Source: a virus
Strand: one strand, 5' to 3'
IMG/VR virus record: IMGVR_UViG_3300027733_000215
Location: 1 to 22,670 of that record
Length of the DNA stretch: 22,670 bases
Shown one piece after another: positions 2,301 through 15,589 of this stretch (positions within the stretch are counted from its first letter, which is position 1; the number at the start of each line of letters is the position of its first letter). The notes under the pieces were generated by a model that was given only the letters and a program-made list of their open reading frames with translations, searched no databases and was not told the origin of the DNA. Made by a program: the position numbers and the translations under genes.

Positions 2301-3287
2301 ATGCAACGGGCATACCGTGCCGCCAGCAAGGCAAGCATACGGGAACTGCAAGCACTCGAAGACCGCATAGCAGAGCGCGAAGCGCAAGGGGAACCACGAA
2401 GCGCAACGATTGAATTTATGCGGCAACGCATCATCAGTAACATTGATGAGCTAGGACAAAACCTAAAGAAGTTTAGTATCGAGGGGGCAAAGATAACCGC
2501 TGATGGACAACTCGAATCAGCCATCCTTGCGAACGAGGCAACTCAACGCCTCGTTGAAACGGCAGCGGGAAAAAAGCCAGCCAACGTTAGCGTTGGTTTG
2601 GGATGGACAAACCTACCTGACGAGACCCTCCAAACGTTTGTCGGCATGGCTGGTGATGGCAGCCCTCTGGCGGAGTTATTTGACACAATCCCTCAATTTG
2701 TAACCGATGCTATGAAACTCAGCCTCGCACAAGGCATCAGCCTTGGCGAAAGCCCTCGAACCGTGGCACGTAGACTGCAACGGGTGGCCATGGTTGGTCA
2801 GTCAAGAGCTGAGACGATAGCCCGTACTGAGATGATACGTGCCAGCCGTGAAGCACAGCGGCAACTGTATGCCGAGAACCCATCGGTTACAGGCTTCAGG
2901 CGGCAAGCTACGCAAGATGCGCGGGTATGCCTTGCTTGCTTGGCTTTGTCCGGCACACTTCAAAAGACCGATGAAATCATGCCGAGTCATCCGAACTGCC
3001 GGTGCGTGATGATACCGGAAACGCTCTCCTGGGCTGAGATAACCGGCGATTCTTCTATCCCTGATACACGGCCACAGGTGGCAACCGGTGAAGAGATACT
3101 GAAGGGGCTTACACCGCTTGAAGCTCAGCAGATACTAGGCACTGCCCGCTACAACCTTTACACTGAAGGCCTGCCGCTCAGTGACATGGCAACCGTTGTT
3201 CCTAACGCCGACTGGGGGCCTACTACACGGGTATTGCCGCTTAGAGACCTAGAGGGATACCAACCGGATCTAACAACCTACCTATGA
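2301..3287 (+). CDS. MuF / SPP1 gp7-type minor head (head morphogenesis) protein; true N-terminus unresolved
   Basis: Minor head protein acting with the portal during head assembly and DNA entry. The family signature is clear: TIARTEMIRASREAQRQL, then DARVCLACLALSG and MPSHPNCRCV, a cysteine/histidine pattern typical of SPP1 gp7/MuF proteins. The N-terminal half is charged and helical (RELQALEDRIAEREAQ). The first ATG is 2301, but the frame is open back to a TAA at 2166 and reads convincing protein before the ATG (ARIYAAGQKFRNDLLEREG, the usual gp7 N-terminal helix). No ATG, GTG or TTG exists in that stretch; only CTG codons at 2268 and 2271 do. A strong GGAGGA at 2196 lies inside the portal 3' end without a start behind it. 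The gene may therefore be read by -1 frameshift from the portal, use a rare start, or have lost its start. It ends ATGA-overlapping an ATG at 3284. Confidence 0.88.
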   Translation: MQRAYRAASKASIRELQALEDRIAEREAQGEPRSATIEFMRQRIISNIDELGQNLKKFSIEGAKITADGQLESAILANEATQRLVETAAGKKPANVSVGLGWTNLPDETLQTFVGMAGDGSPLAELFDTIPQFVTDAMKLSLAQGISLGESPRTVARRLQRVAMVGQSRAETIARTEMIRASREAQRQLYAENPSVTGFRRQATQDARVCLACLALSGTLQKTDEIMPSHPNCRCVMIPETLSWAEITGDSSIPDTRPQVATGEEILKGLTPLEAQQILGTARYNLYTEGLPLSDMATVVPNADWGPTTRVLPLRDLEGYQPDLTTYL

Positions 3288-5688: not shown

Positions 5689-5692
5689 CTTG

Positions 5693-5703
5693 TGTGGGAT
5701 ACT
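5693..5703 (+). promoter_or_regulatory. Candidate extended -10 promoter P3 (TGTGGGATACT) behind the capsid terminator
   Basis: An exact copy of the P1 element, starting 5 nt after the capsid terminator T-tract and 6 nt (GAAGAC) before the ATG at 5710. Lying between a terminator and the next gene, it is where a promoter is needed, which is the best contextual support for promoter function of this repeat. No -35 similarity to the other copies is visible; the expected region falls inside the terminator stem. Confidence 0.6.
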
Positions 5704-5709
5704 GAAGAC

Positions 5710-6210
5710 ATGAGCTTGAGCCGCGCCGATGCAATAGGAAGAGTAGCCCTGTACAGTCAAGCGGCGCAATATCCTGCCGTGTCTACTACCGACATTGGCA
5801 TCATCCTCGATGAGCATGAACGCTTTGAAACGTGGACAGCAAGCACCGTCTATGCCATTGGTGATCGGATAGTAGGCACCACTCCTAATGGCCGTGTCTA
5901 CGAATGCCGACAGGCTGGGACATCAGGCACCACTGAGCCAGAATGGCCGAACATCTGGGGATGGGCGTGGGAAGGTTTCCTCCTTACTGAAGGAACATCA
6001 AACCCGCAGTTAGCATGGGTTGATATGGGGCCAGCACACATCGAGCGTTACGATGTACGCACTGCTACCCGTGCTGTATGGCTCCTCAAGGCCGGACTGG
6101 TTGCTACAGAGATTGATGCCAAGGAAGGCACATCTGATGTCAAGCTCTCACAACTGCAAGCGCAGTTTCTGACGATGGCCGACCGCTTCCGCCCGGTGAG
6201 TATCTTTTAG
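5710..6210 (+). CDS. Head-tail connector (gp6-like) with inserted carbohydrate-binding-like domain
   Basis: A 166-residue protein in the position of the first head-tail connector after the capsid gene. The ends look like a small helical connector: SRADAIGRVALYSQAAQYPAVS at the N-terminus and RTATRAVWLLKAGLVATEID...LSQLQAQFLTMADRF at the C-terminus. Between them (about residues 39-105) sits an unrelated module starting ETWTASTVYAIGDRIVGTTP and including GRVYECRQAGTSGTTEPEWP, a pattern known from carbohydrate-binding/decoration domains of phage virion proteins. The insert may be displayed on the virion at the neck. The start at 5710 follows the P3 block; the GTG at 5692 would only add residues that translate it. 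It ends directly before the next ATG (TAG ATG), implying coupling. The connector assignment is moderate; the inserted domain is clearer. Confidence 0.7.
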   Translation: MSLSRADAIGRVALYSQAAQYPAVSTTDIGIILDEHERFETWTASTVYAIGDRIVGTTPNGRVYECRQAGTSGTTEPEWPNIWGWAWEGFLLTEGTSNPQLAWVDMGPAHIERYDVRTATRAVWLLKAGLVATEIDAKEGTSDVKLSQLQAQFLTMADRFRPVSIF

Positions 6211-9878: not shown

Positions 9879-10288
9879 GTGTAACCGTATCCCTGAAGAC
9901 TACCGGTATAGACCAGTACAAGCGCAACCTAGCCAAGATAAACAAGATTGTGGGTAAAGCTGCGGCAGATGTCGAAAGCACCGCAAAGCGGAGCATCAAG
10001 ACATCGAGCGGCAAGTATCGTGAGTATGAAAAGGGGCATTGGTCAAGCCCTCCCGGTTCACCGCCAAACTCCGATACAGGCTTTCTTGCCAACAGCATCA
10101 TGCACCGGATGCTTACTACTACCAGTGCCGAAGTGTCCGTGATGGCTAAGTATGCAATACCGCTGGAACTTGGATGGACATCGAAGGGCGGCAACACCGT
10201 ACCGCCGAGACCGTTTCTAGATCCAGCCTTACAGCACGTAAGACCAGCATTTGTCAAAGCATTAACCGTGGTGCTGAAGGGTAAGTAA
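9875..10288 (+). CDS. HK97 gp10-like tail completion / neck protein
   Basis: A 137-residue protein of the HK97 gp10 family, which bridges the head connector and the tail tube. It begins with VSLKTTGIDQYKRNL and a helix with KAAADVESTAKRSIKT, and ends with the family hallmark: YAIPLELGWTSKGGNTVPPRPFLDPALQ, then a C-terminal helix (FVKALTVVLKG). A GAGGTG lies about 9 nt before the ATG and the gene overlaps its upstream neighbour by 4 nt; its last base is shared with the next ATG. Position just before the DUF3168-type tail terminator and the major tail gene agrees with standard siphovirus synteny. Confidence 0.88.
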   Translation: MSVTVSLKTTGIDQYKRNLAKINKIVGKAAADVESTAKRSIKTSSGKYREYEKGHWSSPPGSPPNSDTGFLANSIMHRMLTTTSAEVSVMAKYAIPLELGWTSKGGNTVPPRPFLDPALQHVRPAFVKALTVVLKGK

Positions 10289-10775: not shown

Positions 10776-11228
10776 ATGGCATTTACAAAATCATTCGGTC
10801 TGGTAGGCGAAAACTGCGTTGTCACCATCGCTTTTGGTGGCTTCCAAGATGGTAGCCCGACAGCCTTCACCGCTAACACTTACACCTGTTTGGCTAAGTC
10901 AGTGCGTACATCTACAAGCGTAGATACCGCTGATGTCAGCGCTCTTTGTGACACAACTAAGAAGATGCAGGTTACCAAAGCATCTGGCTCTATCGACATC
11001 GAGCTGCTGGTAGACGGCACACAACAGGCTGACGGTTCACCTATCTTTTTCAACAAAGAGGGTTACTATTGCCAAGTGGTTATCACTCCTGGCGCTCTTT
11101 CCGCTAAGACCTTTGTAGGCATCGTTACCGCTACTGGTATTGGCATTGCGGCAGGTGAAGCGGTTACAGAGACAGCGACAATCATGCTCGGTGCTAACGG
11201 CGTAACGACCGCATGGGCTACCGCATAA
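10776..11228 (+). CDS. Major tail (tube) protein
   Basis: A 150-residue beta-rich protein in the position of the tail tube subunit, between the tail terminator and the tail assembly chaperones. It has the expected tube style: IAFGGFQDGSPTAFTANTYT, LAKSVRTSTSVDTADVSALC, a KMQVTKASGSIDIELLVDG beta segment and ITPGALSAKTFVGIVTATG, close to the lambda gpV / TP901-1 type tube fold in strand pattern and size. A good AGGAG Shine-Dalgarno sequence lies 6 nt before the ATG, as suits a highly expressed structural gene. It ends TAATG-overlapping the chaperone gene. Named from synteny and composition rather than a strict motif. Confidence 0.8.
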   Translation: MAFTKSFGLVGENCVVTIAFGGFQDGSPTAFTANTYTCLAKSVRTSTSVDTADVSALCDTTKKMQVTKASGSIDIELLVDGTQQADGSPIFFNKEGYYCQVVITPGALSAKTFVGIVTATGIGIAAGEAVTETATIMLGANGVTTAWATA

Positions 11229-11620
11229 TGGGTATCAAAGCCATCAAGGCAGTTGCCCCTGAAGTGGAACACGGCATCCTTGAAGTTAACCTAAGCGAGT
11301 GGGCCGGTGAAGGAGCGATAGTAAAGTTCCGCCAGCCAAAAGCGGCAGACTACTTCCCAGATGCAACTGAGCTACAGAAAATCAGGATGTCTTACGCTGA
11401 GATGGCACCTAACCTTTTGGTCAACTGTCTCATAATTGGCAAGTGCTACGTCCCTGATATGGATGACCCATCGGATGCGGCTTTCATTCGTGTGCTCCTT
11501 GACCTAAGCCGCAAGAATACGCAGGCGTTCTACGCTATCTATTGGTCGTTCATTGGTAAGTATATTGATGTGTCGGTTACCAAAGAGGTAGACGAAGCAA
11601 AAAACGACTCGGCGGTGTAG
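11228..11620 (+). CDS. Tail assembly chaperone, short form (gpG-like)
   Basis: A 130-residue protein (MGIKAIKAVAPEVEHG to NDSAV). It is the first of the two tail assembly chaperones that coat the tape measure protein while the tube polymerises. It lies directly between the major tail and tape measure genes, and its 3' end carries a -1 frameshift site that produces a longer form, which is diagnostic. The start at 11228 (TAATG overlap with the major tail stop) is preferred over the ATG at 11213, which is inside the upstream gene. The protein has a beta N-terminus (GAIVKFRQPKAADYFPDA) and helical C-terminal half. No good Shine-Dalgarno sequence is present, so coupling to the tail gene is likely. 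Confidence 0.88.
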   Translation: MGIKAIKAVAPEVEHGILEVNLSEWAGEGAIVKFRQPKAADYFPDATELQKIRMSYAEMAPNLLVNCLIIGKCYVPDMDDPSDAAFIRVLLDLSRKNTQAFYAIYWSFIGKYIDVSVTKEVDEAKNDSAV

Positions 11621-11775
11621 GGTCAGTCATCGCGTACTACTGCGTGAAATACCTACACCGTCACCCTTCAGAAGTTGACCTTACGCTGGAGCAGATTTGG
11701 GAAGTTGCTGTGATTGCTCAGGATCTAGAGAAGCACGAAGTAGCCGTGATTAAAGCAACAAGGGGCATATTTTGA
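11228..11775 (+). CDS. Tail assembly chaperone, frameshifted long form (gpGT-like)
   Basis: A -1 shift on A_AAA_AAC at 11599-11605 moves ribosomes into a frame that stays open from the site to TGA 11773-11775. The product has 182 residues: 125 from the short form plus 57 new ones including VIAYYCVKYLHRHPSEVDL and EQIWEVAVIAQDLEKHEVAV. The new helical domain has no initiation codon of its own with a Shine-Dalgarno sequence and fills a gap of about 150 bases that would otherwise be non-coding in a tightly packed operon. In lambda the equivalent GT fusion recruits the tape measure and tube proteins at a low fixed ratio to G. The extension ends overlapping the TTG start of the tape measure gene (TTGA). 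Confidence 0.88.
11599..11660 (+). promoter_or_regulatory. -1 programmed frameshift signal: slippery heptamer plus stem-loop
   Basis: The heptamer A_AAA_AAC is in the correct reading phase (GCA AAA AAC). It is followed by a 7-nt spacer and a perfect 9-bp stem, CGGTGTAGG (11613-11621) with CCTACACCG (11652-11660), around a 30-nt loop. The zero-frame stop TAG (11618-11620) lies inside the stem. GTCA in the loop (11622-11625) could pair with TGAC at 11676-11679, hinting at a pseudoknot, but that pairing is short. Confidence 0.9.
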
Positions 11776-13352
11776 CAGTAGCACAACTGACCGTAAAGCT
11801 CGGCGTGGATGGCATGGGGCAAATTGTTTCTGCCCTTGATAAAGTCAAATCCGGGTTAGGCCAAGTCGCACAAAAAGCCCAAGGTGCCGGGTCAGCCCTT
11901 GGTGCTATGGGTGGCGTGGCTATTGCCGGAAGCATTGCTGGCTTTGGTATGTTGGGTAAAACTGCCTTTGATGCGGCGGTGTCTTTTGAGTCGCTCAACT
12001 CCAGGCTAACCGCCATTACCGGTAGTGGTGAAAAAGCGGCTCAAGTACTTGACATGGTTCGCAAGGTCGCCGGGCCTTCCCCCTTCACCTTTAGCCAGTT
12101 GGCAAACTTAGCCGTAGGGCTTGAGTCTATCGGGCTTGAAACTAATGCTTTGCTTCCACGCCTTGCCAACCTTGGCGCTGCTTTTGGTGCCGATGAAGAG
12201 CATCTGAAATCCTTGTTAAACATGGTCGGTAAGTTCAAAGCTGGTCAGATGCCTGATAGTGAGCAGATGGCTATGTTTGGTATGAGCCGTTCACAGTTTG
12301 CTAAAGAAGGCATTAAGTTTGACAAGGGCGGCGGGCTTGATCCGGGGCAAGAGCTGAAGGTATTTGAAACCTTTATAAAGATTATTGATACCAAATACAG
12401 CGGGATGCTTGATGGTCTATCCGGTGACACGGCCACAAAGTTAGCATCGCTTGAAGACGCATGGGAAGGGGCTATGCGTACCATTGGTCAAAAGCTGATA
12501 ACCATCTTGACCCCATACATCAAGTACGCTACCGACTTCCTGGGCCGCATGATGGACAGCGGAATCTTAGCGGATCTAACTACAAAGTTCTTTGGGCCTA
12601 TGCAAGAATTTACTAAGGGTTTCACCGATGGCAACGTCCAAGCAAGCGTAGATAAGTTGCTGGCCTCTATCCTTGCCGTTGGTGCATCTATCCCGGACAT
12701 CCTCAGCGGCACTTTCCAGAATGTCGGCAAGATTCTACAAAACTTTTTGACCAACATAAACGCCAGTATCGGGAAGCTCAACCCATTCTTGGCGATGCAA
12801 GGTCATAAAAAGATTGATGACCTGAAGACGGATTATATTTCTGGTCGTATTACCAAAGCAGAACTAGATGCACGGCGTAGCCAGATCTCTAACGAGTACG
12901 GCTTTGGTGCTACCGGTGACATCATGCAAGGCGTTGACTTTGGCAAGCCTTTTGCGGATGCTCAAAAGTTTGCAGACAGTATCATCGGAAAGATGGCAGG
13001 TAGCAAGGCCCCTGAAGTGGGCGGCGTACCTAAGCCGTTCGGCCCTTACTTCAAACCCGGTGAAGAGCCGGGTATGGGTGGCGCTGGTGAAACCGGAGAC
13101 CTGCTACTCCGCATTGCAAAGAATACGCAAGAGACCACCGAAGCCTTGACCCTACGGCGTGAAACTTTAGGCGGCGGGACGATGGGTGCCATAGGCCTAA
13201 CTGGTGCCGAGGTTGGAGCCGTGAACGCCTCCTTCGGTAGGTTTGGTAATGGCCTTATCCCAGCAGGCACAGACCTCGAACGAGCCATGCGTAGACTTAT
13301 CCGGGATGAGGGTAGACGCAACGGACAACCCGGCATAATGGGACGGTTCTAA
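11772..13352 (+). CDS. Tape measure protein
   Basis: A 526-residue protein that fills the tail lumen and sets its length. It starts at TTG 11772 with AGGGG 6 nt upstream, overlapping the long chaperone form by TTGA. The N-terminus is typical: LTVKLGVDGMGQIVSALDKVKSGLG, then an Ala/Gly-rich hydrophobic segment (GAMGGVAIAGSIAGFGMLG, about residues 45-63) and FDAAVSFESLNSRLTAITGSGEKAAQVLDMVRKVA with the SPFTFSQL line of minor tail/tape measure proteins. The middle is helical and Gly/Ala-rich with further hydrophobic stretches around 280-320. It is short; at roughly 1.5 angstrom per residue the tail would be about 80 nm. Confidence 0.9.
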   Translation: MTVAQLTVKLGVDGMGQIVSALDKVKSGLGQVAQKAQGAGSALGAMGGVAIAGSIAGFGMLGKTAFDAAVSFESLNSRLTAITGSGEKAAQVLDMVRKVAGPSPFTFSQLANLAVGLESIGLETNALLPRLANLGAAFGADEEHLKSLLNMVGKFKAGQMPDSEQMAMFGMSRSQFAKEGIKFDKGGGLDPGQELKVFETFIKIIDTKYSGMLDGLSGDTATKLASLEDAWEGAMRTIGQKLITILTPYIKYATDFLGRMMDSGILADLTTKFFGPMQEFTKGFTDGNVQASVDKLLASILAVGASIPDILSGTFQNVGKILQNFLTNINASIGKLNPFLAMQGHKKIDDLKTDYISGRITKAELDARRSQISNEYGFGATGDIMQGVDFGKPFADAQKFADSIIGKMAGSKAPEVGGVPKPFGPYFKPGEEPGMGGAGETGDLLLRIAKNTQETTEALTLRRETLGGGTMGAIGLTGAEVGAVNASFGRFGNGLIPAGTDLERAMRRLIRDEGRRNGQPGIMGRF

Positions 13353-13353
13353 C

Positions 13354-13632
13354 ATGTCAAACGTCCATCAGCTGAAGGTCGAGTTTGATGTAGTTGAACC
13401 TCGCCCGCAGTTTGGTAGGCTGATGGCTCCACTAGATGGAACAAAGGTAGACCTAACCAATAGCTACAACGTCTGGCAAGACCCGGCCACGCTTACGATT
13501 GCTTGCTCCGCTCCCGGTTACAACGGCATGGTCTACAACTTTCAGCGGATCGTATGCAAGGTTTCAAAAGACCGACTATACGCTAATCACGGCGGCATCT
13601 TGGAAGCAGATGCAGATCAGGGCAAGCGGTGA
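13354..13632 (+). CDS. Minor tail protein, N-terminal part (possibly split from the next frame)
   Basis: A 92-residue reading frame beginning 1 nt after the tape measure stop: SNVHQLKVEFDVVEPRPQFGRL and PLDGTKVDLTNSYNVWQDPA, ending DRLYANHGGILEADADQGKR at TGA 13630-13632. It overlaps the following large frame, which lies in +1, and it ends where that frame starts to look like protein (SGDYYLQSLNITERATL). The joined sequence reads as one continuous beta-sandwich, jelly-roll-like domain. It could be a separate small protein with an overlapping downstream gene, a programmed +1 shift, or a single gene broken by an indel; the sequence does not decide. No homology can be named. Confidence 0.55.
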   Translation: MSNVHQLKVEFDVVEPRPQFGRLMAPLDGTKVDLTNSYNVWQDPATLTIACSAPGYNGMVYNFQRIVCKVSKDRLYANHGGILEADADQGKR

Positions 13633-15589
13633 TTACTATCTGCAAAGCCTCAACATTACCGAGCGGGCAACGCTTACAACGGCCTTCAGTGCGAATCAAG
13701 CGGTCTACTTATCTTTGTACGTCCCTGGACTAAAGGACACTGACAAGAGCATCATTCTCAAGTGCGGCTGGGGTGTCGGTGCGGCTGGAAGCGTTGAGGT
13801 CTGGTTTGCCGCAAACGGGAGCGCTCAGGTGTTCAAGTCCGGTGTAGTCGTTGGCACTTACGAGCGGGGAGATTCTAACATCGCTCCTGCCGTTGGCGCT
13901 CAGACATCCAAGTCTAGCCGGTCTGACTTCATCGGCATAATGATGATTCCAGCACGGCGGCGAGAACTGCTAGTAACAACTTCAGACGGTACAAACTTTA
14001 GCCATGTCTTTGAAGACCTAGACCCCGGCATCCAGAATAACATCTTGCCTGCTGCCGCTTTTAGTTGGTTGGTTCCAACCGGCCAGGCTACGGTTCAACT
14101 TGCTAAGTGCAACTTTGAAACCAGCGGCTACGTGCTATCGCAAGTCAAAGCCCTGCGGTATCCGCCTCCGGTTGGTGCTACCTTTAGCCCAACGTATGCC
14201 GGTGACAATGTCGGCTTTGGTGCTTACACTTTTACCGGGTCGGTAGTCAAGTCTGACGGAACGGCATACACGCCGAATGGTGCCATCAAGGACGTACGTC
14301 TAAAGGTTGCCCTTACGGGTGCAGGTACCGGCTCACTTGGTCTGTACTCAGCTGAAGGCGTCTACGATGCCACTATAGGTGCTACTTACAACGGCACGGT
14401 TGATGTTACGCAATACATACAGTCACTGAGCATGGCGGTAGATGAAGACGGCAAAGCCACCTGCACGATTGGCGCGATTGCTAAACCATTGATAGATGCC
14501 GGTATTCAACAAGCCAATGTGACATCAGACCGACCGGTTAGGATTGCGCTTGGTGATGGCCCTGCTGTTTATCCGGGAGTGGTTACCTACAAGGACATCT
14601 TTCGGGGTACGCTTCAGCCACCGAAGATAAAGTTTCTAGACCGTGACACAACGGCCAGTTGGGCAACCTATGTGTACAGCGGTACGGATCGTAGCCGTGA
14701 TTTTGACCTTGCTTGGTTGGTTGAGTCTTACCCTTACGATGGCATCTTGGCAATCAATGCCATCATCGACCTCATGCTGATTGCTGGCTATGATGCCAAC
14801 ATCTACTATGGTGGCTCTACTCCAGATCAAGAGCTACCGTATACCTCCAACATCTCGAAAGGTCAGTACACCCTTGCACCTGATTACGGAGATACCGTTG
14901 CGTCTTACTTAGACAAAATCAAGCAGGAATATTACGCTACTTGGATAACCGGTTGGATGCCTACCGCTTCCGGCTACCTCTACCAGTGGCTTGATGTGAA
15001 CGCCGCTAGCACGGCATCTACGATGACGCTATATCAAAGCATATCGACGGCAACCACGGCGGGAGTGGCTGAAGAGCTACGCCCGCAAAGGGTGATTCGT
15101 AGCCTTAACAGTTACAACGAAGAAGCCGAATGCACTCAGGTTACGGTCATTGGTCAAGACCCCAACACCGGTAAATTCATTCCGTATACACAGATAGATT
15201 CAGCCGCTGAGATTGCGGCAACAGCACCGGCATCAAGGCCTAGAAACTGGCGCGGAAGACCGGTGTGCTACCAGTTCCGAGACCCGGCGCTGAACACCCT
15301 TGATGCGGTTACGGCAGCCTGTTTGATGCTCTACACCCGGCTAACCACTGGGCGCACGATGATTGAGTTCGACGCTACATTCTTGGTTTACAACGTAAGC
15401 AACAGACCAGTCTGGCTTGGTGATGTCATCAAGCTGATGGACACAGACGGGGTTGGAGTGCTTGGCAACTATCGCATTATTGCCATCCCGTCTATCGAGT
15501 TTGTGCAGGAGAACACGGTCGGATCTAGTACGTTATTCAATGTGCGTAAGGCTTCCTACCGGGCAGTGTATGTGAGCGCAGGAACTTAG
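13610..15589 (+). CDS. Minor tail / tail-tip hub-like protein
   Basis: About 659 residues from ATG 13610 (upstream GGAAG only 3 nt away); a weak TTG at 13499 is an alternative. Residues 5-200 look beta-rich and lectin/jelly-roll-like (ERATLTTAFSANQAVYLSLY and SVEVWFAANGSAQVFKSG). The second half has the character of a tail hub: WATYVYSGTDRSRDFDLAWL, AINAIIDLMLIAGYDANIYY, DTVASYLDKIKQEYYATWI, and CTQVTVIGQDPNTGKFIPY, followed by TGRTMIEFDATFLVYN and PVWLGDVIKLMDTDGVGVLG, like gp27-type hub domains. Position between tape measure and fibre supports a distal tail or tail-tip protein. It is possibly continuous with the preceding 92-residue frame. It ends directly at the next ATG. Confidence 0.65.
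   Translation: MQIRASGDYYLQSLNITERATLTTAFSANQAVYLSLYVPGLKDTDKSIILKCGWGVGAAGSVEVWFAANGSAQVFKSGVVVGTYERGDSNIAPAVGAQTSKSSRSDFIGIMMIPARRRELLVTTSDGTNFSHVFEDLDPGIQNNILPAAAFSWLVPTGQATVQLAKCNFETSGYVLSQVKALRYPPPVGATFSPTYAGDNVGFGAYTFTGSVVKSDGTAYTPNGAIKDVRLKVALTGAGTGSLGLYSAEGVYDATIGATYNGTVDVTQYIQSLSMAVDEDGKATCTIGAIAKPLIDAGIQQANVTSDRPVRIALGDGPAVYPGVVTYKDIFRGTLQPPKIKFLDRDTTASWATYVYSGTDRSRDFDLAWLVESYPYDGILAINAIIDLMLIAGYDANIYYGGSTPDQELPYTSNISKGQYTLAPDYGDTVASYLDKIKQEYYATWITGWMPTASGYLYQWLDVNAASTASTMTLYQSISTATTAGVAEELRPQRVIRSLNSYNEEAECTQVTVIGQDPNTGKFIPYTQIDSAAEIAATAPASRPRNWRGRPVCYQFRDPALNTLDAVTAACLMLYTRLTTGRTMIEFDATFLVYNVSNRPVWLGDVIKLMDTDGVGVLGNYRIIAIPSIEFVQENTVGSSTLFNVRKASYRAVYVSAGT

Follow-up and report, generated by a model that had tools for sequence, protein, structure and literature searches.

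The stretch of DNA analyzed here (the window) is a 22,670-base IMG/VR virus record that carries the structural operon of a tailed phage. The operon encodes a terminase large subunit, portal, MuF-like protein, S78 protease, HK97-type capsid, connector proteins, major tail protein, and tape measure protein; no Rfam family or tRNA was found in the window. All features of the chaperone locus described below lie on the plus strand. The major tail protein candidate (positions 10776 to 11228; phrog_10528 major tail protein, E value of 3.3e-4) adjoins a short gene (11228 to 11620), with which it overlaps at TAATG. This short gene encodes, in the zero frame, a 130-amino-acid protein that is probably a G-like tail assembly chaperone, as judged from the open reading frame, its relatives, its gene position, and a fold that weakly matches the HK97 chaperone. 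Downstream lies the tape measure gene (11772 to 13352), which has a TTG start and whose product matches phrog_12798 (tape measure; E value of 5.9e-8) and PF20155 TMP_3 (E value of 6.3e-8; 33 bits, below the curated cutoff of 41). The chaperone gene is located between the genes of the major tail protein and the tape measure, which is the position of a lambda G/GT-type chaperone.

Two other genes of the window deserve mention. The product of a small head-tail gene (5692 to 6207) has a weak match to a carbohydrate-binding module (CBM_5_12; E value of 1.2e-4, below the curated cutoff). A tail gene at 13354 to 15589 is split into two frames in this record, a 92-amino-acid open reading frame ending at 13632 being followed by another frame to 15589. 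Its counterpart is a single open reading frame of 738 to 747 amino acids in all eight nearer relatives whose locus reaches the gene end, and the break is probably a one-record indel, sequencing error, or mutation rather than a frameshift signal.

Near its 3′ end, the chaperone gene contains the slippery heptamer A_AAA_AAC (11599 to 11605), in phase with the codons GCA AAA AAC and separated by 12 nt from the zero-frame stop TAG (11618 to 11620). Open from 11569 onward, the −1 frame yields 56 residues between 11605 and a TGA stop at 11773 to 11775, which overlaps the tape measure TTG at 11772. Including its stop codon, this extension, a putative T-like domain, spans 11605 to 11775, and a shift at the heptamer would give a fusion product of 182 amino acids. 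Recomputation confirmed all coordinates and lengths that the first-pass annotation had given for the phase of the heptamer, a 7-nt spacer, a 9-bp stem, and the 182-residue product, and likewise its observation that the −1 frame stop meets the tape measure start.

AAAAAAC occurs only once in the window. With the codon usage of the window, any in-phase X_XXY_YYZ heptamer arises in 5.6% and A6[CG] in 0.17% of 17-codon stretches; with the peptide fixed, A6N arises in 8.3% of draws. Thus, the window alone is suggestive rather than conclusive, and it is conservation that settles the matter. The 5,288 codons of the window hold 15 in-phase heptamers. Apart from those at 11599 and 2175 (see below), all but one give −1 extensions of 10 residues or fewer, the exception being the heptamer at 10030, with an extension of 37 residues.

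A scan of viral contigs yielded 33 relatives with 60 to 98% identity to the chaperone, making 34 sequences with the window; three of these (L014, L020, and L032) are cut by contig ends before the heptamer site. AAAAAAC is present at the identical offset (371) and in the same phase in 31/31 sequences long enough to include the site (the window and 30 IMG/VR loci). A −1 extension of 55 to 56 codons follows in all 29 sequences that do not run off the contig, and its stop overlaps or abuts the tape measure start in 29/29. The first-pass annotation had made its proposal depend on conservation of the heptamer and the −1 frame in relatives, and both are conserved (31/31 and 29/29). The counts over 31 sequences are those of the heptamer offset and of in-frame start codons; the alignments (A1 to A3) hold 22 of the 31, nine close sequences (L002 to L006, L009, L012, L016, and L026) having been left out. 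The tape measure start codon is TTG or GTG in the clade nearer to the window and ATG in a second, more distant clade. The contact of this start with the extension stop (29/29) suggests coupled translation, with strengths that differ.

Selection was assessed on 28 distinct sequences among the 29 full-length ones. Over the extension, dN/dS is 0.12 in the −1 frame, compared with 1.24 and 2.02 in the zero and +1 frames, respectively, and the zero frame is interrupted by stops in 28/28 sequences. The four stops counted in the −1 frame are the terminal codon in four sequences with an extension shorter by one codon. In the upstream gene, the residue is invariant in 61 degenerate codon columns; a single codon is used in just 7 of them, three of which, in a row, are the heptamer codons 124 to 126. 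GCA AAA AAC is the only codon choice in 28/28 and in 30/30 distinct sequences, without synonymous variation at the heptamer. Taken together, these data indicate selection on both frames and on the letters of the heptamer itself. Compared with the window, sequences of the second clade are 53 to 59% identical in the tape measure and 48 to 58% in the C-terminal half of G, and 89 to 93% in the major tail protein and 67 to 75% in the extension; among the relatives as a whole, the major tail protein is 89 to 97% identical. As a correlation only, this pattern of divergence agrees with contacts of G with the tape measure and of the extension with the tail protein.

Downstream of the heptamer, a perfect 9-bp stem can form between 11613 to 11621 and 11652 to 11660, with a loop of 30 nt and a spacer of 7 nt. 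The minimum-energy fold adds two more pairs, giving an 11-bp stem (5′ arm, 11611 to 11621; 3′ arm, 11652 to 11662) and a spacer of 5 nt. The 95 nt after the heptamer fold at −32.7 kcal/mol, compared with a mean of −25.0 for shuffled sequences (z = −2.28; 5/200 shuffles are as good), and the 57 nt that follow the heptamer rank 7th in folding energy among 4,522 windows. Single-sequence folds predict a stem beginning 5 to 8 nt past the heptamer in all 25 distinct sequences. Across the alignment, the stem cells are paired in 90.9% of cases, compared with 34.6 to 54.1% in slid controls, a paired fraction reached by 1/500 shuffles. Two stem pairs show two-sided changes, a number reached by 165/500 shuffles; in alignment A1, the pair of columns 29 and 66 is broken in 5/21 distinct rows and the outermost pair in 10/21. 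Conservation of the stem is partly forced, because it sits in coding sequence that is itself conserved.

Burial of the zero-frame stop by the stem, to which the first-pass annotation had drawn attention, holds for the clade of the window. However, in the second clade the zero-frame stop lies 3 nt past the heptamer, ahead of the stem, so that stop burial is not the mechanism. A pseudoknot between loop positions 11622 to 11625 and 11676 to 11679 had also been considered in that annotation. It was rejected, since its pairing is not conserved (48.8% of cells are paired, no better than in shuffles), and an alternative loop segment tried as the partner performed no better than 11622 to 11625.

Upstream of the heptamer, we found an element that is absent from the first-pass annotation. 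The tetramer AGGT (11586 to 11589; part of GAGGT at 11585 to 11589), a candidate 5′ stimulator resembling a Shine-Dalgarno (SD) site, precedes the heptamer by 9 nt. AGGT, usually as GAGGT or AAGGT, is found at this distance in 30/30 distinct sequences and occurs elsewhere at 0.3 per sequence. The corresponding codon 120 varies among Glu, Lys, and Gln yet always ends in G, whereas the same residues elsewhere in the gene end in G in 57% of cases. Judged by sequence, the SD-like site, heptamer, and hairpin would together resemble the three-part signal of Escherichia coli dnaX, in which an A6N heptamer is preceded by an SD-like site at about 10 nt and followed by a hairpin. The two differ in that the dnaX site is A_AAA_AAG (PMC5009743), with G instead of C in the last position, and in that the frameshift product here is longer than the standard one; the genes are unrelated.

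The identity of the protein cannot be read from family libraries: Pfam, PHROGs, and NCBIfam hold no fitting family for the 130-amino-acid protein, 22 members of which gave matches at chance level only. The extension weakly matches phrog_13019 in 11/22 members (best E value of 0.099). A tblastn search of the "phages" collection with the 130-amino-acid protein gave no match, and among named phages the extension gave chance-level matches only, while the DNA region of the chaperone locus, the major tail protein, and the capsid protein gave none. The tape measure search returned 57 distant records, every one with less than 60% identity, and none of 28 and none of 30 pattern matches in bacterial genomes encoded relatives. 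A predicted structure of the 130-amino-acid protein (mean pLDDT of 73.4) has as its top Foldseek match in the PDB the HK97 tail assembly chaperone 2ob9, at a weak E value of 0.46, all others being at 0.46 and above; YqbN (3klu) and then PICI ORF19 follow with weak scores. The Z scores are 4.7 for the HK97 chaperone, 6.9 for YqbN, and 4.5 for PICI ORF19, all under 8, and values of 4.5 to 6.9 may merely reflect a common arrangement. Annotated tail assembly chaperones are also listed among the BFVD matches, at weak scores. Given the location of the gene, with that of the major tail protein on one side and that of the tape measure on the other, and given the frameshift, a chaperone of the lambda G/GT type is by far the most likely identity of the protein and its extension. 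The resemblance to lambda G/GT noted in the first-pass annotation is thus borne out by gene order and frameshift, the fold match to the HK97 chaperone being weak. In sequence, the chaperone belongs to a family that Pfam, PHROGs, and NCBIfam lack; in kind, it is already known and largely expected in such phages.

Lambda has the same order of major tail protein, G, −1 extension, and tape measure; its heptamer is G_GGA_AAG, whereas here it is A_AAA_AAC. Close to the 3′ end of its G gene, lambda makes a −1 shift that gives a short and a long product (PMC5009743), as would be the case here. The present locus is unlike that of lambda in its strong hairpin and SD-like site and in its lack of a tblastn match in the "phages" collection. 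According to PMC5009743, the G-T frameshift is a widely conserved feature of phages with long tails, known G/GT chaperones share little sequence, and A_AAA_AAC is the G-T site of the haloarchaeal virus HCTV-2. A chaperone frameshift at the same heptamer has been predicted for Caulobacter phage phiCbK (gp93/gp94) and its relatives (PMC3556154) and for Acinetobacter phage Loki (gp12/gp13) and IME_AB3 (PMC5313236), and possibly for Dragolir (PMC6003738). The phiCbK and Loki genes are likewise tape measure chaperone genes with a predicted −1 frameshift at AAAAAAC; unlike them, the 130-amino-acid protein is without a tblastn match in the phage collection. For PRFect, 2,397 annotated frameshifted chaperones in 3,679 SEA-PHAGES genomes are given (PMC10885494). 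The site had been called a textbook frameshift, a label that goes slightly too far because A_AAA_AAC is described as much less shift-prone than A_AAA_AAG in E. coli (PMC5009743), from which the host of this phage may differ.

On the strength of conservation, selection in the −1 frame, the sequence signal, and gene order, we consider it very likely that two tail assembly chaperones are made from one start by a conserved programmed −1 frameshift. The majority of ribosomes would read A AAA AAC GAC TCG GCG GTG TAG and stop, giving the short chaperone of 130 amino acids. A minority would be stalled by the hairpin that starts 5 to 7 nt downstream, with pairing of GAGGU to the anti-SD sequence of the ribosome probably aiding slippage, and tRNA-Lys and tRNA-Asn would slip back by one base to AAA AAA, at a rate that we can only infer. 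Slipped ribosomes would then read 56 further codons to produce the 182-amino-acid fusion. If lambda G and GT are a guide, the part shared by both products would coat the tape measure protein, and the extension, which is rarer, would recruit the major tail protein.

Three other explanations were weighed against this frameshift. (i) The −1 frame could be expressed independently, as a small gene that has a start of its own and yields no fusion. Counted from the first codon of the extension, the window indeed has in-frame GTG codons at +39, +105, and +141. However, none of the start positions is shared throughout the 31 sequences: 14/31 lack the GTG at +39, and L029 has only ATG codons at +141 and +153. 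Moreover, residues of the extension are conserved from the first codons on, upstream of any start, and a separate gene would leave the invariant heptamer unexplained, so that we regard it as very improbable. (ii) RNA polymerase slippage on the run of six A residues would yield the same fusion product as ribosomal slippage. Six A residues are short for transcriptional slippage, and such a mechanism would need neither the conserved hairpin at 5 to 8 nt nor the SD-like site at 9 nt; the phase with zero-frame AAA AAC is kept in 31/31. We give this mechanism an equally slim chance. (iii) The frame could have been broken by sequencing error or gene decay, as might be suspected from the other broken gene of the window (13354 to 15589). 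That break exists in this record only, whereas the two-frame layout of the chaperone is found in 31/31 sequences with both frames under purifying selection; error or decay is refuted by this conservation, and its probability is negligible.

The programmed frameshift in the chaperone gene may have a counterpart at the head end of the operon. C_CCT_TTT (2175 to 2181) lies in phase with the portal gene, 13 codons ahead of the portal stop TAG (2215 to 2217), and from this site the −1 frame runs on for 368 codons, through the MuF-like gene. The portal open reading frame was read from 481 and ends at 2217; that of the MuF-like protein extends from an ATG at 2301 to 3287. In the window, the MuF frame opens at 2169 and has no ATG, GTG, or TTG before the ATG at 2301. 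Among the matches listed (80 of 317 relatives, or 81 loci with the window), 76 have enough upstream sequence, and CACCCTTTTTACGG is present in 76/76 of these usable loci. Its distance to the MuF ATG is 126 nt in 75/76 and 129 nt in one, owing to a whole-codon insertion that keeps both frames. No canonical start exists between the opening of the MuF frame and the ATG in 37/76 loci. In the remaining 39, ATG or TTG codons are scattered at −33, −30, +93, or +96, and MuF may be separately initiated in some of them.

The MuF frame is very probably translated already ahead of its first ATG, over the 81 nt that separate the portal stop from this codon, because dN/dS in these 81 nt is 0.10 in the MuF frame, compared with 2.22 and 2.49 in the other two (61 distinct sequences), and the frame is without a stop in 61/61. 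Within the overlap of portal and MuF, dN/dS values are 0.95 and 0.69; neither frame stands out, as is expected for double coding. No strong hairpin was found by folding after C_CCT_TTT (z = −0.99), which counts against a frameshift. Immediately upstream of the heptamer lies a 20-nt block (2146 to 2165) that is invariant in the 61 distinct sequences, synonymous sites included. This block is possibly an upstream stimulator or another DNA or RNA signal, and the GGGGGT within it (2154 to 2159) could act as an SD-like stimulator.

Portal and MuF seem to occur as one in-frame protein elsewhere, since the front of phrog_2662, a portal family of 717 positions, matches the window portal and its back matches the window MuF; in-frame portal-MuF fusions are also described for some Microbacterium phages (PMC7302621). 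In the literature searched, we found no report of a frameshift that fuses portal to MuF. Both a 2175-type site and the chaperone heptamer were present on 7/7 contigs, which were chosen by hand. We consider it probable, with distinctly less confidence than for the chaperone, that the operon contains two programmed −1 frameshifts, that of the chaperone and one at C_CCT_TTT that fuses a fraction of the portal subunits to the MuF-like protein, a minor head protein.

Two further observations concern the portal. Contig IMGVR_UViG_3300042429_000522 (62,434 bases) carries two portal-MuF junctions with CACCCTTTTTACGG (L186 and L214), which represent either two related head modules or a joined assembly. 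Portal residues 445 to 539 of the 481-to-2214 translation (about 1813 to 2097 in the window) match phrog_2859 (E value of 2e-33), a family of 740 positions of unknown function; this match marks a putative additional domain, located after the portal core and ahead of the candidate frameshift site.

Our analysis names and completes a chaperone family that was unrecognized by the libraries searched. In 31 viral sequences, it also recovers coding sequence of about 150 bases that would otherwise be overlooked. The locus provides a clean comparative case of a three-part signal composed of an SD-like site, A_AAA_AAC, and a hairpin. The chaperone frameshift is ordinary in kind, and the portal-MuF junction is the more surprising lead. 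If true, the portal-MuF frameshift would matter more than that of the chaperone: by setting how many portal subunits carry MuF, the ribosome would fix the dose of this low-copy head protein per portal ring in a simple way.
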